Positions 1 through 18,430 of a stretch of DNA of 64,000 nucleotides are shown here, one piece after another. Origin of the DNA: Flavihumibacter profundi (GTDB lineage: Bacteria > Bacteroidota > Bacteroidia > Chitinophagales > Chitinophagaceae); contig NZ_JAIQXE010000003.1 in assembly GCF_020076305.1 (NCBI RefSeq), positions 620,001 through 684,000 of the forward strand, read 5' to 3'. Under the pieces are notes generated by a model. That model was not told the origin of the DNA, searched no databases, and was given only the letters and a program-made list of their open reading frames with translations. The position numbers were made by a program, and so were the translations under genes. Every line of letters begins with the position of its first letter. The first letter of the stretch is position 1.

Positions 1-719
1 AAAAAGTACCTGGCAAGGTCAAGGTAAGCCTGCTTGCCGGTAACCCTGTACATTCGTGCCAGGCCCATTTCCACAACCTGGTGGCCGGGGAAATATGCAG
101 CTTTGCCAGGACCAAAGTCCTTAACGAGCAGGTCGGCATTTTTAATGGCGATATTTAATAAGGATTTCTTTCCGGTTGCCATAAAATGAGCTACAGCCGC
201 TTCATACAAATGACCCGCATTATATAACTCATGACTCAATTCGGGGTCTGCCTCCCACCTGTTGGGACTGATCCATTCGTGCAATTTCTCAGGTTTCATT
301 GTGCGGAATGTATAGAGGTAGCCATCCGGTTCCTGCGCATCACCAATAATAACAATAAGGCTGTCGAGCGTTTTATCCATCGCCGGGTCGGGATTAACCT
401 GTAATGAATAGGAAATGCCTTCAATAAGTTTATATAAATCAGAATCGTCAAAAGGATATTCTGTTATTTTACCCACAGGCATCTTGCCCGCAGCCTTAAG
501 GAAATTATCTATACGGCCTGTTTCACGGCATTTGCGTAAAGTATAAGGGATGGTAACCCTTGCGTTAGTAGCAATTTTGGGGGCCCAGAAATTATCATGC
601 AAATGGACTTTGGTGAAAGGTACCGGCTGAATAGGATAATCACCGGTAACGGATTGAGCAAATCCGGCAATGCAGGAACCTACAAGAAAAATGATTCCAA
701 ATAATTTCACTTTGACCAT
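1..719 (-). CDS. GH127-family beta-L-arabinofuranosidase, N-terminal part (cut by window edge)
   Basis: The frame opens with ATG at 719 and runs off the left edge, giving about 239 residues; translated by eye because it has no stop in the window. A signal peptide (residues 1-21, ending GFAQ) points to export. The mature part carries GH127/DUF1680 features: an HDNFWAPK segment at the start, FDDSDLYKLIEG, a PDGYLYT motif and the ELYNAGHLYEAAVAHF helix. From memory these align well with Bifidobacterium longum HypBA1, which releases L-arabinose from beta-1,2-linked arabinose on hydroxyproline. The catalytic cysteine region lies beyond the edge, so activity cannot be checked. Its neighbours handle hydroxyproline, which fits the family's best-known substrate. 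It is more HypBA1-like at the N-terminus than the second GH127 at 15139-17493. Confidence 0.85.
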   Translation of the reverse strand, partial: MVKVKLFGIIFLVGSCIAGFAQSVTGDYPIQPVPFTKVHLHDNFWAPKIATNARVTIPYTLRKCRETGRIDNFLKAAGKMPVGKITEYPFDDSDLYKLIEGISYSLQVNPDPAMDKTLDSLIVIIGDAQEPDGYLYTFRTMKPEKLHEWISPNRWEADPELSHELYNAGHLYEAAVAHFMATGKKSLLNIAIKNADLLVKDFGPGKAAYFPGHQVVEMGLARMYRVTGKQAYLDLARYF

Positions 720-745
720 AATTTTGAGATTGACCTTTGGGAATA

Positions 746-773
746 TAAATGTACGGCTGACATTTAATACAAA
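746..773 (-). promoter_or_regulatory. Bacteroidota-type promoter for the GH127 gene
   Basis: On the minus strand TTTG (773-770) is followed after 16 nt by TACATTTA (753-746), one base from TAnnTTTG. The predicted start of transcription falls near 740, about 20 nt before the ATG at 719. The spacer is a little shorter than usual. Confidence 0.4.
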
Positions 774-876
774 GTTTACACAAATTGGCAGTTGCTAGCC
801 GGATTTTCCCATTTCCTGGAATGGATTAGGATAATGTTTGTAAATTAATCAGCAATACGATTAAAATATAATTGCC

Positions 877-2196
877 ATGAACAATCCCCGTCGCAAGTTT
901 ATTCGAACCAGTGGTAGCCTTTTACTGGGAACAGCAGTACTTCCAGCTATCGGATCTGAACTATTACCTGCATACCCATTTCGGACAGGAGCTGCTGACC
1001 GTTTGAATGTGGGTGTAATTGGTGTAAATGGAATGGGTTGGAGCGATCTCCAGGCCATTTTAAAAATTGATGGTGTAAAATGCATTGCCCTTTGCGATGT
1101 TGATGATAATGTATTAAAAAGAAGGGCGGCAGAATTGGAAAAGATGAATATGCCTGTAAAAACCTATTCCGATTACAGGAAGCTTTTAGAAAACAAGGAT
1201 GTTGATATTGTGATTATCGGAACACCGGACCATTGGCATTGCCTGATTATGGTAGAAGCCTGTGCTGCAGGAAAACATGTTTATGTTGAAAAGCCATGTG
1301 GCAACTCCATTACCGAGTGCCGCATTATGGAGGCAGCCCAGCAAAAATATAAAAGCATTGTACAGGTAGGTCAATGGCAAAGAAGTGCACCGCATTTCCA
1401 GGATGCCATTGAATTCGTCCACAGCGGAAAGCTGGGCAATATCCGTACGGTAAAATCGTGGGCATACATGGGCTGGATGAAGCCAGTGCCCATAAAACCT
1501 GATGGGCCGGCTCCTGAAGGCGTTGACTATACACGTTGGCTGGGCCCTGCTACAAACAGGCCTTTTAATGGCAACCGCTTTCATTTTAATTTCCGCTGGT
1601 TCTGGGATTATGCTGGTGGGTTAATGACTGACTGGGGCGTTCACATGATTGATTATGCGCTATTGGGTATGAAAGCAGGGTTCCCTAAACAGGTAATGGC
1701 ATCAGGCGGAAAGATGGCTTACCCGGATGATGCTTCCGAAACACCAGACACCCTCACCGCTATTTTTGAATATGAAAAATTCAACCTGGTATGGGAGCAT
1801 GCAACCGGGATTGACCTTGGCCCATATGGATTAACACATGGCACTGCATTCATAGGCAACAATGGTACATTGGTATTAAACAGGGAAGGCTGGTATGTAA
1901 CGGCAGAAGAAGATAAAATGGCACCGGTACCGATGCAGAAAGACCAGGGTAATTCTTTGGTACGGCATATGCAGAATTTTGTAGACGCTATCCGTGCGGG
2001 TAATGGAAGCACGCTGCATACCCCAATACAGGAAGCATCAAAAACTGCACAGGTTTGCCAGTTGGGTAATATAGCATTCCGCACAAGGGAAAAATTAAGC
2101 TGGAATACTGCTACAAATTCATTTGATTCAAAAGCAGCCAAAGAACTCATGACAGCAGGTTACCACAATGGATATACCCTGCCAAAGCTGGGCTAA
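877..2196 (+). CDS. Tat-exported Gfo/Idh/MocA-family oxidoreductase (possible GH109-like glycosidase)
   Basis: This 439-residue protein starts with a twin-arginine signal (RRKFIR at residues 5-10 followed by a hydrophobic stretch), so it is probably exported folded with its cofactor. A Rossmann NAD(P)-binding segment (GVIGVNGMG, about 46-54), a TPDHWH motif (116-121) and the EKP signature (138-140) identify the Gfo/Idh/MocA family; a later DWGVHMIDY segment supplies the usual active-site histidine. Exported members in Bacteroidota act on sugars, some as NAD-dependent glycosidases (GH109), others as dehydrogenases; the sequence alone does not decide. It lies divergently from the GH127 gene and ahead of the permease, with a terminator hairpin between it and the permease, so it is probably its own transcription unit within the plant glycoprotein locus. 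Confidence 0.8.
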   Translation: MNNPRRKFIRTSGSLLLGTAVLPAIGSELLPAYPFRTGAADRLNVGVIGVNGMGWSDLQAILKIDGVKCIALCDVDDNVLKRRAAELEKMNMPVKTYSDYRKLLENKDVDIVIIGTPDHWHCLIMVEACAAGKHVYVEKPCGNSITECRIMEAAQQKYKSIVQVGQWQRSAPHFQDAIEFVHSGKLGNIRTVKSWAYMGWMKPVPIKPDGPAPEGVDYTRWLGPATNRPFNGNRFHFNFRWFWDYAGGLMTDWGVHMIDYALLGMKAGFPKQVMASGGKMAYPDDASETPDTLTAIFEYEKFNLVWEHATGIDLGPYGLTHGTAFIGNNGTLVLNREGWYVTAEEDKMAPVPMQKDQGNSLVRHMQNFVDAIRAGNGSTLHTPIQEASKTAQVCQLGNIAFRTREKLSWNTATNSFDSKAAKELMTAGYHNGYTLPKLG

Positions 2197-2224
2197 TATC
2201 CGGCCAATACAGATTAAAATTTAC

Positions 2225-2253
2225 AAAGCGATCGCCCCATAGCGATCGCTTTT
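2225..2253 (+). terminator. Intrinsic terminator after the Gfo/Idh gene
   Basis: A perfect 11-bp stem (2225-2235 with 2242-2252, half-site AAAGCGATCGC) closes a 6-nt loop and ends in TTTT, 28 nt after the stop at 2196. The A-rich left arm could allow it to work on the other strand too. Confidence 0.8.
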
Positions 2254-2291
2254 GATGTTATATATTACAGCAATTGAAATTACAGGGTATT

Positions 2292-3695
2292 ATGAGTGAA
2301 CCAAACTTTAAGCCGACCCTTCGTTTACTGGATGCAACCATGATTGTAGCCGGATCTATGATCGGTTCCGGCATATTTATTGTCAGCGCAGATATAACCC
2401 GGAATATTGGAAGCTCGGGATGGTTAATCGCTGTGTGGCTGATTACCGGTTTCATGACCATTACCGCAGCATTAAGTTATGGCGAACTCAGCGCAATGTT
2501 CCCAAAGGCCGGCGGGCAATATGTTTATCTTAAGGAAGCGTACAATCCCCTGATAGGGTTCCTGTTCGGGTGGAGTTTCTTCTCAGTAATACAAACAGCC
2601 ACTATAGCGGCAGTAGCCGTAGCTTTTGCAAAGTTCACCGCCTATCTTTTCCCGGTTTTCAGTGAAGACAAAGTAGCCCTGAAATTTGGGGCACTGGCTA
2701 TCTCACCGGCCCAGTTATTATCTATCGTTGTAATAGTTTTACTTACGTTTATCAATACACGAGGAATAAAAAGCGGCAAGCTGATCCAGACAACATTCAC
2801 CCTCACCAAACTGCTAAGCCTGTTCGGATTAATACTGTTTGGTTTAATGGCTTTCCGGCCTGGTGTATGGGACTTAAACTGGACCAATGCATGGCACCTG
2901 CAATCGAGGACCCCGGCAGGCATATTGGGAGATTACAGCCTGTTTGCCGCACTTGGTGCCATAGCGGCTTCGATGGTGGGGTCAATATTCAGCAGCGACT
3001 CATGGAACAATGTGACATTTATTGCGGGTGAAATAAAAAACCCGCAACGCAATATCGGCCTGAGTCTTTTCCTGGGTACACTGATTGTTACTATTATCTA
3101 TGTATTAACCAATATCACCTACACTGCGGTACTGCCGCTTGACGCAATTGCCGGCGCTGAAAAAGACAGGGTTGCTGTAGCTGCAGCACAGGAGATTTTC
3201 GGGCCTGCAGGCACCATGATTATTGCGATCATGATCATGATTTCAACCTTTGGCTGTAACAATGGAATCATTCTGGCCGGCGCCAGGGTTTATTATACCA
3301 TGGCGAAAGATGGTTTATTCTTCAGCAAAGCCGGTTCCCTCAACAAGAATGGCGTTCCTGCATATGCCTTATGGCTACAATGCTTATTTGCCTGTGCCTG
3401 GAGCCTTAGCGGCAAATACGGACAGTTATTGGATATGATTTCTTTTGTAGTTGTTGGGTTTTATATGCTCACTATTGCTGGTATTTTTATCCTTCGCAGG
3501 AAAAGACCCGATGCCCTGCGGCCTTATAAAGCATTCGGGTACCCGGTGTTGCCAGTTATTTACATTATGATGGGCCTAAGCTTCTGTATTTTACTGATCA
3601 TTTTTAAACCATCCTTTACCTGGCCAGGACTTATTATTACTCTTTTGGGAATCCCTATTTATAAGATTATTCCCAAAAAGAATAGCCCTGTTTAG
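2292..3695 (+). CDS. APC-family amino acid permease
   Basis: An inner-membrane amino acid/polyamine/organocation transporter of 467 residues with about twelve hydrophobic segments and the family signature GSMIGSGIF in the first helix. The first ATG giving a normal N-terminus (MSEPNFKP) is at 2292; an in-frame TTG 18 nt upstream is not needed. The substrate cannot be read from the sequence. Its position, convergent with and 14 nt from the hydroxyproline catabolic operon, makes an amino acid such as hydroxyproline or a released proline-type amino acid a reasonable guess. It sits just after a strong terminator, so it needs its own promoter in the short gap 2254-2291, where nothing convincing was found. 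Confidence 0.88.
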   Translation: MSEPNFKPTLRLLDATMIVAGSMIGSGIFIVSADITRNIGSSGWLIAVWLITGFMTITAALSYGELSAMFPKAGGQYVYLKEAYNPLIGFLFGWSFFSVIQTATIAAVAVAFAKFTAYLFPVFSEDKVALKFGALAISPAQLLSIVVIVLLTFINTRGIKSGKLIQTTFTLTKLLSLFGLILFGLMAFRPGVWDLNWTNAWHLQSRTPAGILGDYSLFAALGAIAASMVGSIFSSDSWNNVTFIAGEIKNPQRNIGLSLFLGTLIVTIIYVLTNITYTAVLPLDAIAGAEKDRVAVAAAQEIFGPAGTMIIAIMIMISTFGCNNGIILAGARVYYTMAKDGLFFSKAGSLNKNGVPAYALWLQCLFACAWSLSGKYGQLLDMISFVVVGFYMLTIAGIFILRRKRPDALRPYKAFGYPVLPVIYIMMGLSFCILLIIFKPSFTWPGLIITLLGIPIYKIIPKKNSPV

Positions 3696-3709
3696 TCTTA
3701 AAGGAGCAG

Positions 3710-4951
3710 TTAAAACCTGTTGGGGTCAAAGGCTTCGATGGAAACTGAAGTTTTTTTGCGGGAAGCGAGCTCAGCAACCAATTTACCGGTTGCAGGGCCA
3801 AGGCTTAAACCCATCATTGCATGGCCTCCGGCTACGATGAGGTTATCTAACGATTTTATATAACCGATATAAGGTAAGCCGTCCGGGGAGCAGGGCCTGA
3901 AGCCATACCAAACATCCTGTTCTGCCGGCATAGCGACCTGAAGACCGGGAAAATACGCTGGAATAGACTCAACAATTCCCCTTACCCTGTTCATATTTTT
4001 CGAATGGTTTACCGGGCCTAGTTCCATGGTTCCACCATACCTCATTTTACCTGCCATCGGTGTAATGGCTACCCTTGCTTCGCAAAGGATCGCAGGTATA
4101 TTCAGGCTTTTTTGGGGATGATCTAACGTAAAGGAATACCCTTTACCCGGCATCAGGGGAATTTGCTGTCCGCATTTTTTCAATAATTCCGGTAACCAGG
4201 AACCTGCTGCAAGAATAAACAGGTCGGCTCCTATTGTCTGGGTTTCAGTTTGCACAGCGCTGACCTTTCCCTGTTTGCTGTCGATTCGGGTAATTTCAGT
4301 ACCGGTAATAACGCGAACACCCCTCGCCTGTAAATGCTGCAGTAATTGCTGGTTAAGCTTATTGGGATATAAATGGGCATCACATTTATAATGTACAGCA
4401 CCTAACACATCCAACGTCACAGCGGGTTCCAGTTGTTGTGCAGCCTGCCTGCCAAGGGTATCAACATCCAGTCCCATTGACCTTGCTTTTTCAGCAAGAT
4501 GAGCTTCTTCTTCACCAACTTTCGGATCTTTGAAATACATCATGATTCCCTTCCTCTCGTAGGCAAAATCAAAACCAGGTAAAGACTTCAATTCCTCGTA
4601 CAAGGAACGGCTCAACAGGTTAATATCCCTTAAATAGGGCGCCGCCGCCTCTGCTTTTGCCTTTGTAGCGCTTTGCATGAATTTTAATCCCCAGGAAACG
4701 AGGTTCCAGCTCAGCGAAGGTTTTACATAAAATGGACTCTTTGCATCAAACATCCAGCGAATGCCCTGTGATATAATACCCGGGGCCGCCAAAGGAACAA
4801 AGTGGCTGGGAACGATCATTCCCAAATTACCATAGGAACAATTATCTGCCAGGTCAGTGCGATCAATTATAGTTACATCCCATCCTGCTTCTGCCAGGTA
4901 GTAAGCGCTGCACAAACCAATAATACCTCCGCCAATAATTACTGCTTTCAT
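3710..4951 (-). CDS. FAD-dependent D-amino acid dehydrogenase, probable cis-4-hydroxy-D-proline dehydrogenase
   Basis: A 413-residue DAO/DadA-type flavoprotein. The N-terminal GGGIIG (residues 7-12) is the FAD-binding Rossmann loop, and the C-terminal YGFRPCSPDGLPYIG and GGHAMMGLSLGPATG segments are typical of DadA-like enzymes. In hydroxyproline catabolism this family oxidises cis-4-hydroxy-D-proline to 1-pyrroline-4-hydroxy-2-carboxylate, passing electrons to the respiratory chain. The assignment rests on context: its ATG overlaps the stop of the semialdehyde dehydrogenase by 4 nt (4948-4951), and the deaminase precedes that gene, so the three are translated from one message. A general D-amino acid dehydrogenase is the alternative. 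It ends 14 nt from the convergent permease. Confidence 0.85.
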   Translation of the reverse strand: MKAVIIGGGIIGLCSAYYLAEAGWDVTIIDRTDLADNCSYGNLGMIVPSHFVPLAAPGIISQGIRWMFDAKSPFYVKPSLSWNLVSWGLKFMQSATKAKAEAAAPYLRDINLLSRSLYEELKSLPGFDFAYERKGIMMYFKDPKVGEEEAHLAEKARSMGLDVDTLGRQAAQQLEPAVTLDVLGAVHYKCDAHLYPNKLNQQLLQHLQARGVRVITGTEITRIDSKQGKVSAVQTETQTIGADLFILAAGSWLPELLKKCGQQIPLMPGKGYSFTLDHPQKSLNIPAILCEARVAITPMAGKMRYGGTMELGPVNHSKNMNRVRGIVESIPAYFPGLQVAMPAEQDVWYGFRPCSPDGLPYIGYIKSLDNLIVAGGHAMMGLSLGPATGKLVAELASRKKTSVSIEAFDPNRF

Positions 4952-6549
4952 AAATTAGCGGGTACAATAGGTTCGCGGGTATATTCGCCATTAACTTTTC
5001 GCATTATGCCAAGCGGATTGCTGTTTTGCAAAGCCTCGGGCAAGCTGGATTCCGGACAATCCTGTAAACAGATGGGCCGGAGGAAGCGCTTTATTGCTTC
5101 TGCACCCACCGAGGTGGAACGCGCGTCCGTAGTTGCCGGGAATGGCCCGCCATGCACCATAGCATGACATACTTCAACGCCTGTTGGTACATTATTGTAA
5201 ATCACCCGGCCAACCTTACCGGATAAGGCTTCCACAAATGAACTATATTTTTTAACGTCTTCTCCAGTTGCATAAATGGAACCAGTTAACTGGCCATGAA
5301 GCCCCTGGATTGCTTCCAGCATTTCACTTTCATTCTCGCAAATTACTAACAGGGAAGCCGGACCGAAAATTTCATCCTGTAACATTTGCTGCTGAATAAA
5401 TGCCTTCGCGCTAACCTGCAGCAGGCTTGGGGAGCCTTTATAATTCCCCTGTTCATCCGCTCCTTCCAGTAAAACAGTAACACCATCCACGGCGCTGATT
5501 TTTTTACGATCGCGGTAATAGCTGGAACAAATTGTCTTATTCAACATTACACCCGCAGGAACTGCAGCCAGGGCAGCCTGTAAGGCTACAATAAAATCTT
5601 CCGTAAGTCCATCCCTTGTTACAAATAATAAACCCGGGTTTGTGCAAAACTGCCCAACGCCAAGGGTAATGGAACCCGCCAGTTGCTGCGCAATGGCAGC
5701 ATGATCTTCCGATAATTTCCCGGGTAATAACAGCACCGGGTTTATACTGCTCATTTCTGCATATACAGGAATTGGTGTAAGCCGATCATGGGAAGCAGTT
5801 CGGAATAAAGACATTCCTGCTTTAAACGAACCGGTAAATCCAATTGCTTTGATCCCTTCATGTTTGGCCAGCACCTGTCCAAGTGTTGCACCTTCACCTA
5901 TAAGTGAAGAGAAGACCCCATCTGGCATACCCGATTTCTTCGCAGCATTTTGAATGGCCGTTGCCATCATTTCGTTTGTACCCAGATGCGCGCTGTGCGC
6001 TTTTACAATTACCGGATTCCCTCCAGCCAGTGCTGAAGCGGTATCGCCGCCGGCTGTTGAAAAAGCAAATGGAAAATTGCTCGCAGCAAAAACCGCAACC
6101 GGGCCAATTGGTACCTGAATTTTACGAAGGTCTGCCCGGGGTAAAGGTTTCCGATCAGGTTGTGCAGTATCAATCACCGCTTCCACCCATGAACCTTCCC
6201 GCAAAACAGCGGCAAATAAACGCAATTGGTTAACAGTCCTGTCGCGTTCTCCTGTCAGTCTTCCCATGGGTAAGCCGGATTCCAGGTTAGCACGTTCCAG
6301 CAGCTGGTCTCCCAAAGCCATGATTTCCTGGGCAATTGTTTCGAGGAATACTGCCCTTCCAATAGCGCTAATCCTGCTGTATACAGGGAAGGCTTTAGTT
6401 GCTTTATCAATGGCCAGCTGAATCTCTGCTGCAGAAGCAACGGAAAACCCTTCGGGTAACTGGGCACCTTTTAGTGTGCTGAAGGAAAATAATTTTTCTG
6501 TTTGTTCAGCGGCAATTCCGTGCCCGATTATACTAAGACCAGTTAGCAT
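4948..6549 (-). CDS. 2-oxoglutarate semialdehyde (2,5-dioxovalerate) dehydrogenase
   Basis: A 533-residue NAD(P)-dependent aldehyde dehydrogenase that would oxidise 2-oxoglutarate semialdehyde to 2-oxoglutarate, the last step of hydroxyproline breakdown. Seen: the oxyanion asparagine in SNFPFAF (N158), GFTGS (237-241), the general-base glutamate in AEMSS (E265) and the nucleophile in GQFCTNPG (C302). The length and the KAHSAHLGTNE segment resemble KGSADH type III, the class found in hydroxyproline operons. The ATG at 6549 is preferred to a TTG six bases upstream; it overlaps the end of the deaminase by 17 nt, while its own end overlaps the dehydrogenase by 4 nt, so translation is probably coupled through the operon. 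Confidence 0.9.
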   Translation of the reverse strand: MLTGLSIIGHGIAAEQTEKLFSFSTLKGAQLPEGFSVASAAEIQLAIDKATKAFPVYSRISAIGRAVFLETIAQEIMALGDQLLERANLESGLPMGRLTGERDRTVNQLRLFAAVLREGSWVEAVIDTAQPDRKPLPRADLRKIQVPIGPVAVFAASNFPFAFSTAGGDTASALAGGNPVIVKAHSAHLGTNEMMATAIQNAAKKSGMPDGVFSSLIGEGATLGQVLAKHEGIKAIGFTGSFKAGMSLFRTASHDRLTPIPVYAEMSSINPVLLLPGKLSEDHAAIAQQLAGSITLGVGQFCTNPGLLFVTRDGLTEDFIVALQAALAAVPAGVMLNKTICSSYYRDRKKISAVDGVTVLLEGADEQGNYKGSPSLLQVSAKAFIQQQMLQDEIFGPASLLVICENESEMLEAIQGLHGQLTGSIYATGEDVKKYSSFVEALSGKVGRVIYNNVPTGVEVCHAMVHGGPFPATTDARSTSVGAEAIKRFLRPICLQDCPESSLPEALQNSNPLGIMRKVNGEYTREPIVPANL

Positions 6550-7477
6550 GTGCAAGGGGTTTCAGGTTTTTGTAATCTGGCAATTCAGGGCGAACTGCAA
6601 GTGCATCATTAATTGTTTTCAAAACAGTGACCCTTTCGGTGCCACTTAGGGGCATACGCGGTGCCCGGACATATTCACTGCCAATTCCGGTTGCTGTTGC
6701 GGCAAGTTTGATATACTGAACCAGCTTGGGATGAATATCGAGCTCAAGCAAAGGCATAAACCAGCGGTAGATAGAAAGCGCTTCCTGTATGCGGCCAGCT
6801 TTCACTAACCTAAAGATAGCTACTGTTTCCTGCGGGAAAGCATCTACCAGTCCGGCTACCCAGCCATCAGCACCCAAAACAAGGCTTTCCAGGGCAATCG
6901 GGTCAACACCTGTCAGTATTTTATAACGGTCCCCAAAGCGGTTAATCATCCTGGTTATATTCATTGTATTACGGGTGGACTCCTTAACAGACTGAATATT
7001 TTCAAAAGGCAGAAGTTCTTCAAACATGCTGATAGTGACCTCAATTTTGTAATCAACCGGATTATTATAGACCATAATCGGAAGGGAAGTATTGCGGGCT
7101 ACAGCCTGGAAATAGGCTACTGTTTCATCATCAGAAGACTTATAACGCATAGGTGGTAAAAGCATCAACCCATCAGCTCCGTTTGCCTCGGCTTTCTGTG
7201 CCAATTCTACGGCAACAGCAGTGCTTTGCTCTGCAATACCGACGATTACCGGTGAATTCTTTGGAGAAATTTCCTTTGCATAAATCAGGAGGTCCCTTTT
7301 CTCTTCCATCAGCAATGTGCTTGCCTCACCAAGGGATCCACCAATAATCACACCATCAACCCCGGCGCTGACCTGCGCATCGAGATTGGTCTTAAACAAA
7401 TCAAAGTCCACTTTATCCTCTTTATTAAAGGGTGTGAGTAATGCCGGGAATACACCACTCCAGTTAAAATTTGCCAT
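6533..7477 (-). CDS. DapA-family lyase, probable 1-pyrroline-4-hydroxy-2-carboxylate deaminase
   Basis: A 314-residue class I aldolase-fold protein of the dihydrodipicolinate synthase family. The Schiff-base lysine is K165 (SVKEST), the proton-relay tyrosine Y137 (MVYNNP), and the substrate-carboxylate loop GGSLGEAS (47-54) replaces the usual GTTGE form. In hydroxyproline operons a DapA relative deaminates 1-pyrroline-4-hydroxy-2-carboxylate to 2-oxoglutarate semialdehyde. A true DHDPS is less likely because the gene is first in an operon with the semialdehyde dehydrogenase and the D-amino acid dehydrogenase and because lysine genes are absent. A good -7 element lies 27-34 nt upstream of the ATG. 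Exact substrate is inferred from context. Confidence 0.87.
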   Translation of the reverse strand: MANFNWSGVFPALLTPFNKEDKVDFDLFKTNLDAQVSAGVDGVIIGGSLGEASTLLMEEKRDLLIYAKEISPKNSPVIVGIAEQSTAVAVELAQKAEANGADGLMLLPPMRYKSSDDETVAYFQAVARNTSLPIMVYNNPVDYKIEVTISMFEELLPFENIQSVKESTRNTMNITRMINRFGDRYKILTGVDPIALESLVLGADGWVAGLVDAFPQETVAIFRLVKAGRIQEALSIYRWFMPLLELDIHPKLVQYIKLAATATGIGSEYVRAPRMPLSGTERVTVLKTINDALAVRPELPDYKNLKPLAHANWS

Positions 7478-7535: not shown

Positions 7536-7592
7536 GTGCTTATTAATATAAAATTTACCAATATTAACAGTTTCGTGGAATAGCTACCCGTC

Positions 7593-10832: not shown

Positions 10833-13800
10833 TTAAAAAGAAACCCTCACTGAAAAATTCACAGACTTTGAAGTCGGTGTCGAGAAAGAATAAAGCCCCT
10901 GGGAACCATTAGAAGATCCAAATGAACTCACCTCGGGATCACCTCCTGTAAAATGCGGTGCATAGATCCAGAGGTTTCTTCCGGTTACAGAGAAGACCAG
11001 GCCCTTCACTACGGATCTTTCCAATAATTTCTTAGGAAGTTCATAAGTAAGGCTTACGTTGCGGAGTTTTAAATAAGTGCCATCCTGGATTACTGCTTCA
11101 GTAATACTGTTTAGCCTCCGCCAGTAACTCTGCCCGCTTACTGTAATATCATTTGCTTTCCCGTCAGATTCTTTTATTCCCGGCACTATGCGGTCTGCGC
11201 GGTCTTCGGTTATTTTAGGTGTGCCATAAAAATAGCCATATCCATCAACGTTATTCTCGATATCACCGCCCATTTTCATATCAAAGAAGAAACTAAAACT
11301 GAATTGTCCATACCTGAAATTGTTATTTATGCCCGCCAGCCAATCTGGTGTAATATTTCCAATTATACCATCATTTTCGTCCCTGAATGGCAGGCCGTCA
11401 TCATCAATTTTCAATTGTCCGTCTGCAGTACGGGCAAACCTGCCGCCGAATTTTACGCCATATGGCTGTCCCTTTATAATTTGAGTAAAGCCATTGCCTA
11501 ATTGTTCAATTGGCGGATTAGCTGCATCATTAATTTCCAGAACCTTATTCCGGATCCTGCTATAATTGAAAGCAACATCCCAACTAAAACGGGAGGTTCT
11601 TACGGGAGTTGCGTTGATCAGGACCTCGAGGCCCTTATTCTCAAGTTTCGCACTATTGATAGTGGTAGAAGAATAACCAGAAGCTGCACTAACAACAACA
11701 CCAGGAATTATTCCATCAATTGTTTGCTTATCAAAATAAGATAACTCTATACCTAGTTTGTTCTTGAAAAAACGACCCTCAAAACCAATTTCAAACTCAT
11801 TTAACCTTTCGTTTTTAAGATTTGGGTTACCCAAAGTTGAACTCAGCGCAAAACCAGATTGTCCCTGGAATGGAAAGGTAATTGATCCAACAGTTGCTGA
11901 GCTATACGGCGTCAGTAATGAATATGGGGCAACCTGGTCATTTCCTACAGTTGCATAAGAAACCCTCAGTTTGGCGATATCGACCCATGACCTTGCCCTC
12001 TCACCCATAAATTCTGAAAAAATAAATGCTGCAGCCGCGGATCCGTAAGGATAGAAAGAGTTTTCCTTTGACAACACAGAGCTTCCATCATAACGACCAG
12101 TCAGTGACAGGTTCAGGAACCTGTTATAATCTATATTAGCCTGCATGTAGAAACCAACTTTCCTTTGCAGGTAGTTACTTTCACTAAAAGTAATTGTTGA
12201 AGCGTTGCTGATATTGTCGAAATCTTCAATAGTTGTACCCAAACCATTTCCCCGGTTATATTGCGAATAGGTGGAAATCATATTACTTCCCAGCAACAGG
12301 TTGGTGTTGAATTTTCCAAATTCCTTGTGGGCATTTACAATAAGGTCATTATTAAATTGCCTGAAACTGGTATTCTGGTCGATGATATGACCAGGTGTTG
12401 CGAGTGCGCTGCTGGGTGCTTCAACATATTTTGCCTGCTCTGAATAAAGGTCAGCGCCAAGCCTTTCTGTAACCGTCAGCCAATTGGTTGGTGTATAATT
12501 AAAAGTAATTACCGGGATTACACGATTAACTGTTGCACTGTTATTGATATTATCCAATACCCAATATGGATTATTACGTGAATACCTATACACTCTTTGT
12601 GTGCCATCCTCATTCAGGTATGGCAATGGATTCCAGGATATTGGCGCAGTATAAACAGTCCAGATCGGACTTTCCAGAACGTACCCTTCCGGTGGACGGT
12701 TACTATTGGTGCCGGAATAAGTAGCCTGGACGGTACTTGTCAGTTTATCGCTGATTTTATTGGTAAATTTTGTAAACAGGGAATGTCTTTTATAATCACT
12801 ATTAGGAACAGTTCCTGTCTGGTCAAAATAGGAATAAGACATAAAATAGCTCGATGCTGCACCGCCCCCACTTACGCTTACCGAATTATTTGAAGTGATA
12901 CCTGTTTTGAAAAACAAATCAGTTTGGTTATACCTGGGTGCAGGCGCCCCATTTATCTTTAAGGTATCCATTAAAGGACCCCAAACCCCACTTGTTTTCT
13001 GGTCTTCCCCATTATAAAACTGGCCGCCAAGTCCCTGGCCATATTTGTTTTGAATTTCCGGTAAAAACGGTTTTTCAAAAGAAAGGTCAGAAGAAAAAGT
13101 AAGGGTTGGTTTCCTGTTTACAGTGCCAGCCTTGGTGGTAAGCATAACTACGCCCCTTGCTCCGGATGAACCGTACAATGCAGTAGCAGCAGCGCCTTTC
13201 AATACGTTAACAGATTCAATGGTAGCAGGATCAATATCAGACAAACGATTGGTACCAGGGCCTGAATACAGGTTTCCGGTTTCATCATTATTGATAGGCA
13301 CACCATCGACTACAATCAACGCCTGGTTATCGCCATAAATAGAAGTGTTACCCCGGATTACGATTCTTGATGAGGCACCTGGCGTACCGGAAGAACTGGT
13401 AACCTGCATCCCTGCTACCTTTCCCGCCAATGCATTTACCACATTGGGTTCTTTGGTTTTAAGCAACTCCTCACCTTTAACCTCCTGGGTACTGTAAGTA
13501 AGGTTTCTTTTCTCCTTTTTCACGCCTAGTGCCGTTACCACCACTTCCTCCAATTGTGCGCTTGAATTGGTTAATGTAATGCTGATATCATTCTGGCCAT
13601 TAAGGGCAAGTTCCTGCTCTTTAAATCCCAGAGAAGAAACTACAAGAATCGCATTGCCGGAATATGGCAAAGTAAAACTTCCATCAGCATTGGTGGAAGC
13701 ACCTGAAGCAGAATTTTTTATTTTTACTGTCGCAGATGGAACAGGAGCCCCGTTCTTATCCAGGATTTTTCCTCTCAGCAGTATTGTTTGTGAAAAGACC

Positions 13801-13859
13801 AATAAGCTACAAATAGCCATAAGGGTGGTCAGCAAACCCCTTTTAACGAGTAGTGTCAT
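10833..13859 (-). CDS. SusC/RagA-family TonB-dependent outer-membrane transporter
   Basis: A 1008-residue SusC-type transporter. After a signal peptide (1-24, ending VFSQ) comes a carboxypeptidase-regulatory-like domain (about 27-105), a TonB-box-like EEVVVTALG, the plug domain with RIVIRGNTSI and ALIVVDGVPINN, then a 22-strand barrel ending in an aromatic residue (SVRVSF). It imports a ligand captured by the SusD partner using proton-motive force passed through TonB. It is transcribed divergently from the hydroxyproline epimerase across a 267-bp gap, which fits shared induction. No anti-sigma or hybrid two-component regulator is adjacent. Confidence 0.95.
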   Translation of the reverse strand: MTLLVKRGLLTTLMAICSLLVFSQTILLRGKILDKNGAPVPSATVKIKNSASGASTNADGSFTLPYSGNAILVVSSLGFKEQELALNGQNDISITLTNSSAQLEEVVVTALGVKKEKRNLTYSTQEVKGEELLKTKEPNVVNALAGKVAGMQVTSSSGTPGASSRIVIRGNTSIYGDNQALIVVDGVPINNDETGNLYSGPGTNRLSDIDPATIESVNVLKGAAATALYGSSGARGVVMLTTKAGTVNRKPTLTFSSDLSFEKPFLPEIQNKYGQGLGGQFYNGEDQKTSGVWGPLMDTLKINGAPAPRYNQTDLFFKTGITSNNSVSVSGGGAASSYFMSYSYFDQTGTVPNSDYKRHSLFTKFTNKISDKLTSTVQATYSGTNSNRPPEGYVLESPIWTVYTAPISWNPLPYLNEDGTQRVYRYSRNNPYWVLDNINNSATVNRVIPVITFNYTPTNWLTVTERLGADLYSEQAKYVEAPSSALATPGHIIDQNTSFRQFNNDLIVNAHKEFGKFNTNLLLGSNMISTYSQYNRGNGLGTTIEDFDNISNASTITFSESNYLQRKVGFYMQANIDYNRFLNLSLTGRYDGSSVLSKENSFYPYGSAAAAFIFSEFMGERARSWVDIAKLRVSYATVGNDQVAPYSLLTPYSSATVGSITFPFQGQSGFALSSTLGNPNLKNERLNEFEIGFEGRFFKNKLGIELSYFDKQTIDGIIPGVVVSAASGYSSTTINSAKLENKGLEVLINATPVRTSRFSWDVAFNYSRIRNKVLEINDAANPPIEQLGNGFTQIIKGQPYGVKFGGRFARTADGQLKIDDDGLPFRDENDGIIGNITPDWLAGINNNFRYGQFSFSFFFDMKMGGDIENNVDGYGYFYGTPKITEDRADRIVPGIKESDGKANDITVSGQSYWRRLNSITEAVIQDGTYLKLRNVSLTYELPKKLLERSVVKGLVFSVTGRNLWIYAPHFTGGDPEVSSFGSSNGSQGLYSFSTPTSKSVNFSVRVSF

Positions 13860-13881
13860 AAGCAGTAGTTTTCCTTAATCT

Positions 13882-13889: not shown

Positions 13890-13947
13890 ACCCGAATTGC
13901 CGTTTACCTGTTTGTTCCGTTTATCTTAAACTTTACGAATATTAACC

Positions 13948-13957: not shown

Positions 13958-13976
13958 TGCTTACTGGTAGTTATTA

Positions 13977-14126: not shown

Positions 14127-15128
14127 ATGAAAAAAACATTCTTTTGTATTGACGCGCACACCTGTGGTAATCCGGTTAGGGTGGTTGCCGGGGGTGGGCC
14201 AGCGCTTATTGGGAATTCCATGAGTGAGAAAAGGCAGGACTTCCTGAAAAACTATGACTGGATCCGCAAAGGGCTTATGTTTGAACCCCGCGGGCACGAT
14301 ATGATGAGCGGGTCAATCCTCTATGCTCCGCATGATCCCGCAAATGATGTGGCAGTACTGTTCATTGAAACCAGTGGATGCCTGCCCATGTGCGGCCATG
14401 GCACTATTGGTACAATTACAATAGGCGTTGAAGAAGGCCTGATTGTTCCCAGGACACCTGGTGTTATCAGGATGGAAGCTCCTGCAGGGTTGGTCAATAT
14501 TGAATACAGGCAGCAGGGGCCAAAGGTAAAATCCGTAAAGCTTACCAATGTGCCTGCTTACCTGGCCGCATCTGAGTTAACAGTAGATTGTCCCGATTTG
14601 GGAGAACTGGTGATCGATGTTTCCTATGGCGGCAATTTTTATGCGATTGTAGATGTGCAGAAGAATTTTGCCGGGCTTGAACACTATTCTGCTGATAAAC
14701 TAATTACATGGGCCCGCGAATTACGGAAACGCATCAATGAAAAATATGAATTCGTGCATCCTGAAAATGATACGATCAATGGATGCTCGCATATTCTTTG
14801 GACCGGCGCAGTTCTTGATCCTGCATCAACGGCAAGGAACGCTGTATTCTATGGCGATAAAGCAATTGACCGAAGCCCTTGCGGAACAGGCACTTCAGCC
14901 CGAATGGCGCAATGGTACACAAAAGGCAAGCTGAAGAAAGGCGATCAATTTATCCACGAAAGTATTATCGGATCAACTTTTATTGGCACCATTGAAGAAG
15001 AAACCGAAGTTGCGGGAAAGCCGGCAATCCGTCCGGGAATAGAAGGCTGGGCAAGGATCTATGGATACAATACTATTTCAATTGATCCTGAAGACGATCC
15101 TTATGCCTATGGTTTCCAGGTGATATAA
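14127..15128 (+). CDS. 4-hydroxyproline 2-epimerase (proline racemase family)
   Basis: A 333-residue proline racemase-family enzyme converting trans-4-hydroxy-L-proline to cis-4-hydroxy-D-proline, the first step of the pathway completed by the genes at 3710-7477. Both catalytic cysteines are present: C89 in MCGHGT and C252 in SPCGTGTSA. The second one separates it from trans-3-hydroxyproline dehydratases, which carry threonine there. A proline racemase cannot be fully excluded, but the three downstream pathway enzymes in the same locus make the epimerase role strong. No signal peptide is seen, so it works in the cytoplasm. It is first in an operon with GH127 (10-nt gap) and a GH43-like enzyme, directly tying amino acid catabolism to arabinosidase production. 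Confidence 0.93.
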   Translation: MKKTFFCIDAHTCGNPVRVVAGGGPALIGNSMSEKRQDFLKNYDWIRKGLMFEPRGHDMMSGSILYAPHDPANDVAVLFIETSGCLPMCGHGTIGTITIGVEEGLIVPRTPGVIRMEAPAGLVNIEYRQQGPKVKSVKLTNVPAYLAASELTVDCPDLGELVIDVSYGGNFYAIVDVQKNFAGLEHYSADKLITWARELRKRINEKYEFVHPENDTINGCSHILWTGAVLDPASTARNAVFYGDKAIDRSPCGTGTSARMAQWYTKGKLKKGDQFIHESIIGSTFIGTIEEETEVAGKPAIRPGIEGWARIYGYNTISIDPEDDPYAYGFQVI

Positions 15129-15138
15129 TAACTACTAC

Positions 15139-17493
15139 ATGAAAAGACTTTTTCCCTGCATGCTGGCTGTTGCAATGATTTCTTCAGCAATCCAGGCGCA
15201 ATCTTATATTCCGGTAAAAAATGATACCCGATTTAAGGTGCATCCGGTAGCACCCATAAAGGCTTATGGCTTTGACCTGAAAGATATTCATATTGATAAC
15301 GGGAGCCCCCTTAAAAATGCCATGGATAAAGACGCTGCATATTTGCTATTCCTGGATCCAAACAGGCTACTGAGCCGGTTTTATACCAATGCAGGACTCC
15401 CGGCTAAAGGTGAAAAATACGATGGATGGGAAAGCGAAGCAATATCCGGACATACCCTTGGCCATTACCTGTCGGCGATCAGTATGATGTATGCTTCATC
15501 AGGTAATAAAGAGTTCAAAAAAAGGGCGGATTATATAGTTGCAGAACTGGCCCGCTGCCAATCTGCCAGAGGGACGGGTTATGTAGGCGCCATGCCGGGC
15601 GAAGACAGCTGCTTTGCCAAACTATCACGCGGAGATATTAAAACAGGTGGCTTTGACCTGAACGGGCTTTGGTCGCCATGGTATGTAGTGCATAAAGTGA
15701 TGGACGGATTAGTGGATGCCTATTATTATACCGGTAACAAGGAGGCATTGCAGGTAGTCATTGGCATAAGCGACTGGACGGCCAGGATTCTTAAAGACCT
15801 TAATGCAGAGCAGTTACAAAAAATGTTGCGCTGTGAATATGGCGGGATGAATGATGTACTGGCGCAGGTATATGCGATTACCGGTGATAAAAGACACCTG
15901 GCAACTTCCTATAAATTTTATGATGATTTTGTAATGGCGCCTTTGTCAAAACAAATCGATCCGCTACCTGGCAAACACAGCAATACCAATGTCCCGAAAG
16001 CCATCGGCAGTGCTACCCAATATGAAATAACCGGCAACAAAAGCGACCAGACCATTGCCTCCTTTTTCTGGAATACCATGGTGCATCACCATAGTTATGT
16101 AATAGGCGGGAACAGCAATTATGAATATTGCGGCGAGGAGGATAAACTAAGCGACAGGCTGAGTGACAATACCTGTGAAACCTGCAATACTTACAATATG
16201 CTTAAACTGACCCGGCATTTGTTTTCCTGGTCACCATCGGCAAAACTGGGCGATTACTATGAGCGGGCTTTATATAACCATATCCTTGCCTCGCAAAACC
16301 CGGAGGATGGTATGATGTGTTATTTTGTGCCGTTACGGATGGGCACTAAAAAACAGTTTTCCGATTCACTGCACACTTTCACCTGTTGTGTGGGAAGTGG
16401 TATGGAGAACCACAGTAAATATGGTGAAGGCATTTATTATGAAGGAGCTGACGGCAGTTTATATGTAAACCTGTTTATCCCTTCAACACTAAACTGGCGA
16501 TCCAAAAAAATAAGCATCCGGCAGGAGACCGATTTCCCGACAGGCGACACAGTCAATTTCACAATTCAATCTAAAGGTGCTTCAGTATTCCCCTTAAAGA
16601 TCAGGAAACCGGCCTGGTCCGATAAAACAATTATTTACGTGAATGGACAACCGCTTTCTGTGACTGTTGATATCGATGGATTCATTGTGATCAATCGTTC
16701 CTGGAAAAACAAAGACCGGGTACAACTGGTCTTATCCAAACAATTATACACGGAAGCCATGCCCGATAATGCCAATCGGATTGCTATATTATATGGCCCA
16801 CTGGTACTGGCCGGTTCTTTAGGTACCACTATGCCCGACCCTGTATTTGGCACACCGGTTTTACTTACGGATGATAAAAACGTTAAGAACTGGATTAAAC
16901 CCCTGGATAACCAGCCCCTTCATTTTGAAATGGTTGGCGTAGGAAAACCAAAAGATGTTCCATTGAGGCCCTTTTACCAGGTGTATAAGGAATACTACAG
17001 TGTTTATTGGGATTATTTCACCACCGCAGACTGGCAGAAGAGGCAGGCAGAATATGAAGCTGAGAAAAAGAGATTACAGGAAGTTACGGCACGCACTGTA
17101 GACTTTTTCCGCATCGGTGAAATGCAGCCCGAGCGTGACCATAATTTACAAGCCAGTGAAAAAAGTTACGTAAGTGATGCCATTGGTGTGAACGGCCGTG
17201 AAGTGAGGGCGGGTGGATTCTTCTCATTTGAAATGAATGTTGATACTACCGGGCAAAACACATTGATGCTTACATATATTGGTGATGATAAGGACCGGAA
17301 ATTTGATATAGTGGTAAACGGGACCAAAATCAAAACTGAAGAATTGACCGGTGGCAAATCCGGCAAATTCTACGACCGGGAATATGTGTTGCCCGGGGAA
17401 TTGATTGGTACCCATAAAAAAGCAACCATTCGCATAGAATCAAACTATGGTAAAACAGCCGGGCGTATATTTGGTGTAAGGATAATTAAATAA
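15139..17493 (+). CDS. GH127/DUF1680-family beta-L-arabinofuranosidase-like enzyme
   Basis: A 784-residue exported enzyme (signal peptide 1-20, ending IQAQ). The alpha/alpha-barrel carries the GH127 metal and nucleophile set: E347 and C349 in CETCNTYN, and C416-C417 in FTCCVGSGMENH, matching the Glu-x-Cys and Cys-Cys of HypBA1 where zinc holds the cysteine nucleophile. A beta-sandwich follows, and the C-terminal 120 residues (from about FFRIGEMQPERDHN) form an extra DUF4986/DUF6805-like domain not found in HypBA1. Expected to release beta-L-arabinofuranose from plant glycans or hydroxyproline-linked chains; relatives in GH146 act on the same bond type. It sits between the epimerase and the GH43-like gene with 10-nt gaps. 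Confidence 0.9.
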   Translation: MKRLFPCMLAVAMISSAIQAQSYIPVKNDTRFKVHPVAPIKAYGFDLKDIHIDNGSPLKNAMDKDAAYLLFLDPNRLLSRFYTNAGLPAKGEKYDGWESEAISGHTLGHYLSAISMMYASSGNKEFKKRADYIVAELARCQSARGTGYVGAMPGEDSCFAKLSRGDIKTGGFDLNGLWSPWYVVHKVMDGLVDAYYYTGNKEALQVVIGISDWTARILKDLNAEQLQKMLRCEYGGMNDVLAQVYAITGDKRHLATSYKFYDDFVMAPLSKQIDPLPGKHSNTNVPKAIGSATQYEITGNKSDQTIASFFWNTMVHHHSYVIGGNSNYEYCGEEDKLSDRLSDNTCETCNTYNMLKLTRHLFSWSPSAKLGDYYERALYNHILASQNPEDGMMCYFVPLRMGTKKQFSDSLHTFTCCVGSGMENHSKYGEGIYYEGADGSLYVNLFIPSTLNWRSKKISIRQETDFPTGDTVNFTIQSKGASVFPLKIRKPAWSDKTIIYVNGQPLSVTVDIDGFIVINRSWKNKDRVQLVLSKQLYTEAMPDNANRIAILYGPLVLAGSLGTTMPDPVFGTPVLLTDDKNVKNWIKPLDNQPLHFEMVGVGKPKDVPLRPFYQVYKEYYSVYWDYFTTADWQKRQAEYEAEKKRLQEVTARTVDFFRIGEMQPERDHNLQASEKSYVSDAIGVNGREVRAGGFFSFEMNVDTTGQNTLMLTYIGDDKDRKFDIVVNGTKIKTEELTGGKSGKFYDREYVLPGELIGTHKKATIRIESNYGKTAGRIFGVRIIK

Positions 17494-17503
17494 GAAAAAT
17501 ACC

Positions 17504-18430
17504 ATGACTAAGTGGCCCTTGCTTTTCTGCATCTTCCTATCGTTTTTTTCCAGGGCACAAAAAAAGGACAGTGTTTTTCTATTTGCCTATTTTAAGAACA
17601 ATGGTGAAGACGGGCTTCACCTTGCATCCAGCCAGGACGGTTTGAAGTGGGAGGCACTTAATAAGGACCGGCCCTTCCTGGCTCCCGCTGTTGCAAAAGA
17701 TAAACTCATGCGTGATCCCTGTATTATCAGGGGGGCAGATGGCAAATTTCATATGACCTGGACCGTTAGTTGGAAGGATCGGGGGATTGGTTATGCCAGT
17801 TCATCCGACCTCGTTCATTGGTCAGCTCAACAGTTCATTCCTGTAATGTCTGATGAACCCGGAACCGAGAACTGCTGGGCACCGGAAATTTTCTATGACG
17901 CCGCAACCAAACAGTATATTCTATATTGGTCTTCAACTATTCCCGGGCGTTTTCCTGAAACTGCAAATAACGGCGACCACAATCATCGCATCTATTATGT
18001 TACCACCCGAGACTTTAAACAATTTAGCAAAGCAGCCCTGTTGTATGATGGCGGTTTTAACGTAATTGATGCAACCATCCAGTTAGCCGGTAGCCAATAC
18101 CTGATGTTTTTAAAAGATGAGACCTTACGACCAGTACCCCAAAAAAATATCCGGATTGCTACAAGTCAGACAGCCACAAGCGGTTACTCTGCAGCAACAG
18201 GCCCTATAACAGGTAAATATTGGGCAGAGGGCCCAACTGCAATATTTAACAAAGGTCGCTGGCTGGTATATTTTGATAAATATACGGAGGACAGGTATGG
18301 GGCCGTTACCTCTGTAGATTTAAAAAATTGGACAGATATTTCAGACCAGGTCAAATTTCCTGATGGTGCCAGGCATGGGACAGTTCTAAGAATCAGCAAA
18401 GATGAACTTGACAGGCTGGTAAAGAGATAA
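17504..18430 (+). CDS. Secreted GH43-like (five-bladed beta-propeller) glycosidase
   Basis: A 308-residue exported protein (signal peptide ending FFSRAQ). Repeated blades and the motifs MRDPCIIRG (about 68-76), NCWAPEIFYD (about 123-132) and WAEGPTA (about 244-250) place it in the GH43-like clan; the glutamates of the last two are candidates for catalytic acid and pKa modulators, and the first aspartate for the base. GH43 enzymes commonly act on alpha-L-arabinofuranosides or xylosides. As third gene of the epimerase-GH127 operon it may remove the outer alpha-linked arabinose of extensin chains, exposing the beta-linked ones; that step is inferred. The ATG is 10 nt after the GH127 stop. Confidence 0.8.
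   Translation: MTKWPLLFCIFLSFFSRAQKKDSVFLFAYFKNNGEDGLHLASSQDGLKWEALNKDRPFLAPAVAKDKLMRDPCIIRGADGKFHMTWTVSWKDRGIGYASSSDLVHWSAQQFIPVMSDEPGTENCWAPEIFYDAATKQYILYWSSTIPGRFPETANNGDHNHRIYYVTTRDFKQFSKAALLYDGGFNVIDATIQLAGSQYLMFLKDETLRPVPQKNIRIATSQTATSGYSAATGPITGKYWAEGPTAIFNKGRWLVYFDKYTEDRYGAVTSVDLKNWTDISDQVKFPDGARHGTVLRISKDELDRLVKR

Follow-up and report, generated by a model that had tools for sequence, protein, structure and literature searches.

Why should genes for enzymes predicted to remove arabinofuranose be interleaved with genes for the breakdown of hydroxyproline? The question is raised by the first 18,430 nucleotides of a 64,000-nucleotide stretch of DNA from Flavihumibacter profundi (Chitinophagaceae; contig NZ_JAIQXE010000003.1, positions 620,001 to 684,000), called the window here. 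The catabolism of trans-4-hydroxy-L-proline proceeds through an epimerase, an FAD dehydrogenase, a DapA-like deaminase, and an aldehyde dehydrogenase to 2-oxoglutarate, and the families of all four enzymes are present at this locus and recur with the epimerase in relatives. Judging from gene content and its recurrence, we think it likely that the locus serves the utilisation of hydroxyproline-rich glycoproteins (extensin type) from the walls of plants or green algae. All genes named in the original prediction for this DNA are open reading frames of the family given there, with Pfam matches above curated cut-offs. The features, in window coordinates, are as follows.

1..719 (open reading frame 3-719), minus strand: 5′ part of GH127a, a GH127 beta-L-arabinofuranosidase-like protein with a signal-peptide-like N-terminus; the gene extends left of the window
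877..2196, plus strand: GFO/Idh/MocA oxidoreductase (Pfam)
2191..2206, plus strand: operator-like site GGCTAATATCCGGCCA (score 14.3), located 83 bp upstream of the permease start as listed
2274..3695, plus strand: amino acid permease, candidate for hydroxyproline uptake (Pfam; alternative ATG at 2292)
3710..4951, minus strand: DAO-family FAD oxidoreductase, candidate cis-4-hydroxy-D-proline dehydrogenase (Pfam; near the epimerase in relatives)
4948..6555, minus strand: aldehyde dehydrogenase (ALDH), candidate 2-oxoglutarate semialdehyde dehydrogenase (Pfam, active-site pattern)
6533..7477, minus strand: DapA-superfamily protein, candidate pyrroline-4-hydroxy-2-carboxylate deaminase (Pfam, active-site pattern)
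7554..7569, minus strand: weak operator-like site TGTTAATATTGGTAAA (sub-threshold score of 8.6), located 92 bp upstream of the DapA-like gene
7593..9329, minus strand: DUF885 protein, candidate secreted metallopeptidase with a signal-peptide-like N-terminus and HELIAGH (Pfam, active-site pattern)
9417..10811, minus strand: SusD-like lipoprotein (Pfam)
10833..13859, minus strand: SusC/RagA TonB-dependent outer-membrane transporter (Pfam; TIGR04056, 660 bits)
13932..13947, minus strand: operator-like site GGTTAATATTCGTAAA (score 16.4), located 88 bp upstream of SusC, in the spacer that SusC has in common with the epimerase operon
14127..15128, plus strand: 4-hydroxyproline epimerase (Pfam; NF010578 equivalog)
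15139..17493, plus strand: GH146 beta-L-arabinofuranosidase-like protein with a signal-peptide-like N-terminus (PF07944; nearest solved relative)
17504..18430, plus strand: GH43 protein with a signal-peptide-like N-terminus, candidate alpha-L-arabinofuranosidase (PF04616, 41.2 bits)

The layout is operon-like: the epimerase, GH146, and GH43 genes, originally described as one operon, follow one another with gaps of 10 and 10 bp, and neighbours overlap among the DapA-like, ALDH, and DAO genes. SusC adjoins SusD, and GH146 and GH43 lie in the divergent operon, which is the arrangement of a SusC/SusD utilisation locus. The GFO/Idh/MocA gene (877-2196), absent from the earlier description, lies between epimerase and GH127 in three related loci (L037, L059, and L090). 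Within the window, Rfam gave 0 matches at gathering scores, and there are no tRNA genes.

On the protein side, the epimerase exceeds the cut-off of the NCBIfam equivalog NF010578 (588 bits, cut-off 376) and carries the two active-site cysteines, C89 in CGHGT and C252 in SPCGTG. The other active-site patterns are Y137 and K165 in the DapA-like protein (the latter read directly off the sequence), GQFC at 301-304 in the ALDH, and HELIAGH at 397 in the DUF885 protein. No equivalog model scored over its cut-off for the DAO, DapA-like, and ALDH proteins, whose functions are named from superfamily and genomic context; the predicted "all four steps" hold as four enzyme families, three of them named in this way. 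Among 104 loci (partly duplicates), the corresponding protein clusters recur in 99 (epimerase), 81 (DAO), 74 (DapA-like), and 71 (ALDH).

On the glycan side, the two enzymes predicted to be GH127 are both PF07944 genes, and only one of them keeps that family. The full gene of GH127a (locus L085; G000:C3:618311-620719, 802 aa) encodes GH127 catalytic, middle, and C-terminal domains plus F5/8C and is GH127 both by these domains and by its nearest GH127 structures (6ex6, 4qjy, and 3wkw, at 729, 444, and 302 bits). It is tied to the hydroxyproline system by position only, beside an AraC gene (G000:C3:617386-618297) just left of the window whose relatives adjoin the hydroxyproline operon elsewhere (the AraC cluster was formed by single linkage, with identity down to 33%). 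The 15139-17493 protein matches 5opj at 480 bits, 8k7x at 247 bits, and 3wkw at 39 bits, entries that we take to be BT0349 (GH146), Bll3HypBA1, and HypBA1 (GH127), respectively; since the match to 5opj stands far above that to 3wkw, we reassign this protein to GH146. Its putative Zn ligands, E347/C349 and C416/C417, fall on the E-x-C and CC positions when aligned to 8k7x, and the Zn/nucleophile pattern is kept in 115/115 GH127/146 sequences. Passages of PMC10850190 state that XeHypBA1 and Bll4HypBA1 (GH146) cleave Araf-Hyp.

The GH43 protein (PF04616 cut-off, 32.2 bits) retains acidic residues D71, D189, and E242, invariant across 30 sequences, its own included, and scores 90 bits against the BAD_1527 GH43_22 model, below the cut-off of 500. 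One relative (G028) contains an in-frame stop codon. GH43 is found near the epimerase in 0/98 other loci, so that its linkage is unique to this genome; the copy in a same-genus genome lies 43 kb from the epimerase. Among the annotated proteins of the locus, there is no GH121 beta-L-arabinobiosidase, and a 444-aa protein encoded to the left of the window matches no Pfam family.

Do the two sides work together, or do they only adjoin? The locus could comprise two separate neighbours, namely, a hydroxyproline-peptide locus for collagen, gelatin, or any other source (SusC/SusD, DUF885, and catabolism) and a set of enzymes debranching arabinan, RG-I, or RG-II, a reading that we consider unlikely. 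In its favour, BT0349, taken to be the nearest solved relative of the GH146 protein, functions in an RG-I locus (according to parts of PMC10850190), and in other genomes the relatives of GH43 are found at a distance from the epimerase. Moreover, 26 of 47 epimerase-bearing host-family genomes (some with short contigs) have no GH127/146 gene within 15 kb of the epimerase among the matches listed, and thus the hydroxyproline pathway is not everywhere tied to arabinosides. In the same-genus genome G008, no PF07944 gene directly follows the epimerase, the nearest being 13 kb off.

Against two separate systems stands the frequency with which the genes are found together. The search for co-occurrence that the original prediction had proposed came out in its favour: across 97 host-family genomes, a GH127/146 gene is present in 39/47 genomes with the epimerase versus 16/50 without it (odds ratio 10.4, p 5e-7; p 0.008, 0.001, and 0.19 within genome-size tertiles). 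A PF07944 gene lies within 15 kb of the epimerase in at least 21 of the 47 epimerase genomes where 0.8 is expected, the observed count being a lower bound because only stronger GH127/146 matches were carried over while the expectation used all matches. A GH3 control gave 0/47 among the matches listed (checked by eye). Co-presence, co-location far above chance, and this control rule out chance adjacency. PF07944 genes are also near the epimerase in 25 of 80 named loci, which, with the host-family count, is the rate to use, as the figure of 42/98 loci is biased by the inclusion of loci fetched for GH127/146. Outside the host family, the linkage occurs in 6/55 epimerase genomes, 3 of these 6 having the distant type of ~1000 aa.

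Gene order and phylogeny likewise speak against separate systems. GH146 begins 10 bp after the epimerase, and GH127/146 lies between epimerase and DAO in 17/38 loci (most of the 38 picked for having GH127/146). In trees retaining 115 of 122 sequences (those <450 aa were dropped; GH127a and L026 were relabelled as linked on account of a short locus or a mis-called epimerase ORF), linked genes fall into several subclades: the GH127 tree has 11 linkage changes, of which at least 9 are forced, and the GH146 tree has 10, of which at least 7 are forced. Both numbers are below those of all 500 shuffles, and they show repeated change. These patterns suggest that arabinose stripping, peptide uptake, and hydroxyproline burning belong together. 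The core of the original prediction, a pairing of beta-arabinofuranosidases with hydroxyproline catabolism, gains from co-occurrence, co-location, repeated changes on the trees, and the motif considered below, whereas its GH43 component is linked only here.

An operator-like motif derived solely from catabolic promoters (the DapA promoters of relatives, 20 in all) also precedes some GH127/GH146 genes in relatives, a further point against separate systems. At a threshold of 10, it occurs in 7/31 GH promoters, 3/4 SusC promoters, and 5/369 promoters of other genes (5/31 GH and 4/369 other at 11.9); the promoters are phylogenetically dependent, 3 of the 7 GH sites being of the Mucilaginibacter type, and genes with short upstream gaps were left out. 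Without a fixed position, the motif is found in 3/12 linked and 1/47 unlinked GH promoters. Relatives' permease and epimerase promoters have it in 1/5 and 3/45 cases. In the F. profundi genome, the upstream regions of SusC/epimerase, AraC, and permease exceed the 2% threshold, the DapA (8.6) and epimerase (7.4) sites are below the threshold of 10, and the GH127a and GFO/Idh/MocA upstream regions have no motif. The site before the permease straddles the end of the preceding ORF, with a hairpin and T-run (~2225-2253) between site and gene. The bare operator pattern has 19 matches in the whole genome versus 16 for a reversed control, which is no enrichment, and we therefore claim no genome-wide regulon.

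Which glycoprotein would such a system serve? Passages of PMC5371791 describe extensin repeats in which Ser bears alpha-Gal and Hyp bears alpha/beta-Araf, glycans that the accessory genes of related loci fit: alpha-galactosidases, GH51, and araBAD. GH27 adjoins GH127 ahead of the hydroxyproline operon in 10/98 loci; as a family-wide partner, GH27 (PF16499) was rejected, being near the epimerase in 0/47 host-family genomes (by eye), so that the pairing is a Mucilaginibacter-type trait. Two further loci without GH127/146 contain a GH27 match: L053, whose contig is short, and L076, where the identity is 38%. In L102, a GH97 gene whose product is nearest to alpha-galactosidases stands ahead of GH127 with the operator motif. 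GH51 occurs in 5/98 loci and within 15 kb of the epimerase in 4/47 genomes (G017, G058, G077, and G038; counted by eye). The genes araA, araD, and araB lie beside the hydroxyproline operon in L092 (by Pfam/NCBIfam; this locus also has an aminopeptidase P gene) and in L006 and L014 (by cluster), as do araB/araD in L020. AraA was rejected as a family-wide partner (within 15 kb in only 2/47 genomes, G017 and G094, by eye), and the araA of this genome is on another contig.

The same coupled system might instead act on arabinosylated peptide hormones, solanaceous lectins, arabinogalactan-proteins, or chlorophyte wall glycoproteins, which strikes us as quite improbable. According to parts of PMC5371791, peptide hormones carry Hyp-Araf3 and Chlamydomonas extensins its inner two Araf, and several related loci are labelled lake or groundwater, both points in favour of another substrate; in relatives, genes of the alpha-galactosidase type next to GH127 agree with the Ser-alpha-Gal of extensin and weigh against it. 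The annotated genes of the locus in the window include no alpha-galactosidase, and extensin proper is thus not singled out here.

For use of an extensin-type glycoprotein, the preferred reading, secreted GH43, GH127, and GH146 enzymes would strip O-glycosylated hydroxyproline of its alpha- and beta-L-arabinofuranose. The bared peptides would be cut by the secreted DUF885 peptidase and imported with SusC/SusD, and free hydroxyproline would be taken up via the permease. In the cytosol, the epimerase would yield cis-4-hydroxy-D-proline, to be oxidised by the FAD enzyme, deaminated by the DapA-like enzyme, and converted by the aldehyde dehydrogenase to 2-oxoglutarate, while arabinose would enter a route whose isomerase gene, araA, is elsewhere in the genome. 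The AraC-type regulator probably acts via a putative GGTTAAnATnnGG operator before SusC/epimerase, the permease, and (weakly) the DapA operon.

The HypAA-HypBA2-HypBA1 systems of Bifidobacterium longum and Xanthomonas euvesicatoria likewise direct GH43 and GH127/GH146 against Hyp-linked arabinofuranosides; they have GH121, for which none is annotated here, but here SusC/SusD and the hydroxyproline pathway are in the same operons. In PMC6085000, which treats these systems, the word "catabolism" has 0 occurrences, and a passage notes a prolyl oligopeptidase pseudogene adjoining xehypAA. Trans-4-hydroxyproline catabolic operons contain the same four enzyme families, to which glycosidases and SusC/SusD are joined here; in PMC4113996, a genome-neighbourhood study of the proline racemase superfamily, "glycosid," "arabino," "Bacteroidetes," and "extensin" have 0 occurrences. 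Bacteroidota polysaccharide utilisation loci similarly combine SusC/SusD, exo-glycosidases, and a regulator, whereas here the target would be a glycoprotein, with its protein half burnt as well, and the regulator is of the AraC type and accompanies an amino acid pathway. An in silico account of extensin degradation in Latescibacteria proposes that GH127 acts on extensin but, in the passages of PMC4454575 consulted, describes neither hydroxyproline catabolic genes nor gene linkage, unlike the present locus. The titles and abstract openings of the best matches among open-licence PMC papers hold no description of deglycosylation joined to hydroxyproline catabolism.

For the wider group, we lean somewhat toward the view that, in Chitinophagaceae, Sphingobacteriaceae, and relatives, one AraC-type hydroxyproline regulator and one operator drive GH127/GH146 (in some lineages GH27/GH97 and GH51) together with the hydroxyproline-burning (in some, also arabinose-burning) enzymes, a "glycan plus protein" locus for extensin-type glycoproteins whose repeated assembly would have drawn on different families of glycosidases. 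For extensins and the other hydroxyproline-rich glycoproteins of the wall, the excerpted sources describe turnover by bacteria mainly from the sugar side. If true, a regulon joining deglycosylation and hydroxyproline catabolism would give testable functions to the linked GH127, GH146, GH27, GH97, and DUF885 proteins, for which related loci in cultured strains of Chitinophaga (C. japonensis), Flavihumibacter (F. solisilvae), and Mucilaginibacter would provide a ready test, and would supply a marker by which the use of hydroxyproline-rich glycoproteins could be recognised in genomes.

The window (bases 620001-684000 of contig C3) belongs to a genome of 4.87 Mb. All genes named in the original prediction were found, the left GH127 gene (GH127a) being truncated by the window edge, and the hydroxyproline (Hyp) locus is laid out as follows:

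SusC-SusD-DUF885, then DapA-ALDH-DAO: - strand; ends of DapA, ALDH, and DAO overlapping.
Epimerase-GH146-GH43: + strand; gaps of 10 bp; divergent from SusC.
Amino acid permease, GFO/Idh/MocA gene, and GH127a: left of the catabolic genes.
AraC-type regulator gene: in L085 (this genome's locus left of the window); tail to tail with GH127a.

Seen from GH127a, L085 has a second SusC/SusD pair past the AraC gene (L085:10009-15282, SusD-like_2 again), perhaps an additional importer of the system. Flavihumibacter solisilvae (locus L008) has the same layout of SusC and epimerase-GH146; next come genes for a lipid kinase, a patatin, and CtaA that resemble those of the window, with no match to GH43 in between. 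The window's own lipid kinase, patatin-domain, and CtaA genes (18457-22764, 3′ of GH43) have their counterparts in L008 in the same order, and this block forms a conserved boundary of the locus. A possible sulfide-handling gene group (23783-28607) contains a flavoprotein resembling type III sulfide:quinone reductase (224 bits, below the model cut-off), a protein with a partial Sulf_transp domain (25632-26201), and a metallo-beta-lactamase/rhodanese fusion.

The gene at 15139-17493 had been predicted to encode a GH127 enzyme; a glycosidase gene is indeed present there, but its nearest solved relative places it in another family (480 bits to 5opj versus 39 bits to 3wkw, which we take to be BT0349 and HypBA1, respectively). 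By sequence likeness, its product is assigned to GH146 rather than GH127, and GH127a to GH127 proper. The Glu-x-Cys and Cys-Cys pattern occurs in all 115 GH127/GH146 proteins of our trees. According to excerpts of one source, XeHypBA1 and Bll4HypBA1 (both GH146) act on Araf-Hyp, and other GH146 enzymes have beta1,2- or beta1,3-arabinofuranosides as substrates (PMC10850190). The GH43 protein bears a weak likeness to BAD_1527, described in PMC11264647 as an alpha-L-arabinofuranosidase.

The co-occurrence search suggested in the original prediction was made among 97 genomes of the same family (91 genera), where the epimerase is present in 47 and a gene of PF07944, the Pfam family spanning GH127 and GH146 (called at E ≤ 1e-30), in 55: PF07944 occurs in 39 of the 47 epimerase genomes versus 16 of the 50 without it (odds ratio, 10.4; p 5e-7), with p values of 0.008, 0.001, and 0.19 within genome-size tertiles. 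The genes also lie close together. PF07944 is found within 3, 10, and 15 kb of the epimerase in at least 14, 20, and 21 of the 47 genomes, versus 0.16, 0.53, and 0.79 expected if PF07944 genes were placed uniformly; the control, GH3, was near the epimerase in none of the 47 among the matches listed. Including short contigs, 25 of 80 named epimerase loci have a PF07944 gene. In a separate set of 38 loci, mostly picked for having such a gene, 17 have it between epimerase and DAO. In a same-genus genome (G008), 13 kb separates the epimerase from the closest PF07944 gene. In other families, six of 55 epimerase genomes (counted by eye) have PF07944 within 15 kb of the epimerase, three of the six linked genes being of a distant type (~1000 aa).

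Linked genes are scattered through several subclades of two quick trees, one with 64 GH127 proteins and one with 51 GH146 proteins. Those on the GH127 tree form three groups: proteins of ~650 aa, whose genes mostly follow the epimerase closely; proteins of the Mucilaginibacter type; and 800-aa proteins that include GH127a. Linkage on the GH146 tree falls mainly in a single clade of 30 rows, 21 of them linked and 9 unlinked, to which 15139-17493 belongs. The linkage label changes 11 times on the GH127 tree and 10 times on the GH146 tree, and starred branches force at least 9 and 7 of these changes, respectively. Each of 500 shuffles needed more changes; gains and losses are indistinguishable on these trees.

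A candidate regulator accompanies the locus: of 34 loci having both the epimerase and an AraC-type cluster member (some loci duplicate), 33 have the two 1.9 to 8.5 kb apart, and in the same-genus genome the distance is 15 kb. This genome's protein, whose gene adjoins GH127a, has 69% identity to the same-genus member and 33 to 66% to others. Motif discovery in upstream regions yielded GGTTAAnATnnGGnAA, often 80 to 105 bp 5′ of start codons. With a 16-bp model trained exclusively on DapA promoters of relatives (20 promoters), this genome's SusC/epimerase, AraC, and permease upstream regions score above the 2% false-positive threshold. Several results speak against shared regulation: this genome's DapA and epimerase sites score under a threshold of 10, and no site was found with the model before GH127a or the GFO gene. 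In addition, the permease site shares bases with the ORF before it, and a hairpin lies between the site and the permease gene. This terminator-like element (2225-2253, GCGATCGC, a hairpin then a T-run) sits between the GFO and permease genes, 3′ of the site. With orientation and position fixed, 7 of 31 GH promoters pass (GH127, 4/19; GH146, 3/11; GH27, 0/1) versus 5 of 369 other genes (Fisher p 5e-6, uncorrected for kinship), three of these five preceding GH97, M61 peptidase, and TonB receptor genes. Elsewhere in the loci, passing counts are 3/4 for SusC, 2/5 for DUF885, 1/5 for permease, 3/45 for epimerase, 0/2 for DPP4, 0/29 for AraC, and 18/56 for the training class, DapA. Away from the epimerase, one of 47 GH127/146 genes passes in the scan without fixed position, a GH127 (L194:7451-9835 in genome G049; site score, 15.9) near GH51 and AraA genes, possibly a distant member of the regulon. 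Also against shared regulation, the bare pattern is not enriched across the whole genome (19 matches versus 16 in the reversed control).

Genes accompanying the Hyp loci of relatives bear on the likely substrate. A GH27 alpha-galactosidase-type gene lies directly behind GH127, ahead of DapA-ALDH-epimerase-DAO, in 10 of 98 loci, and in L102, a GH97 gene directly before GH127 is closest to solved alpha-galactosidases (557 bits to 3a24; 167 to SusB). In extensin repeats, serine bears alpha-galactose and hydroxyproline bears alpha/beta-arabinofuranose (PMC5371791, in excerpt); the presence of two alpha-galactosidase families adjoining GH127 fits extensin glycans better than collagen, arabinan, or RG-II, although these genes are a trait of relatives and not of the window's locus. 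GH51 occurs in 5 of the 98 loci, and some relatives' loci contain peptidases (DPP4-type S9, M1, M61, and aminopeptidase P). L-arabinose genes stand beside Hyp genes in L092 (araA, araD, and araB, tested with Pfam and NCBIfam) and, by sequence cluster, in L006 and L014 (araA/araD/araB) and L020 (araB and araD). Near the epimerase in the 47 family genomes, GH51 was found in four, AraA in two, and GH27 in none. Four loci (L059, L088, L090, and L100) have a glutaminase-A-like (GtaA six-hairpin) protein of ~800 aa between epimerase and DAO along with GH127, and nine (e.g., L087, L088, L090, and L096) have a VPS10/BNR-repeat protein, mostly ~770 aa, near the epimerase. The bacillithiol synthesis gene bshC is in the neighborhood of 22 loci (e.g., L040:15503-17104), close behind DAO in several, perhaps merely through conserved gene order.

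The amino acid half of this arrangement, the Hyp epimerase pathway, is known. So is the sugar half, in Bifidobacterium and Xanthomonas, as GH43, GH121, and GH127/146 (PMC6085000, in excerpt). Their union in one set of Bacteroidota operons was not found in the titles and abstract openings of the literature searched, nor by a term search of PMC4113996.

Most likely, the locus encodes one system for Hyp-rich glycoproteins, each step of whose working we infer. Outside the cell or in the periplasm, GH43 would trim terminal alpha-arabinose, and GH146 and GH127a would take off beta-linked arabinose; DUF885 would cut the peptide, and SusC/SusD would import the resulting peptides. Inside the cell, the four Hyp enzymes would convert Hyp to 2-oxoglutarate, and the freed arabinose would be used by an arabinose pathway, araA being present in this genome at C2:145376.
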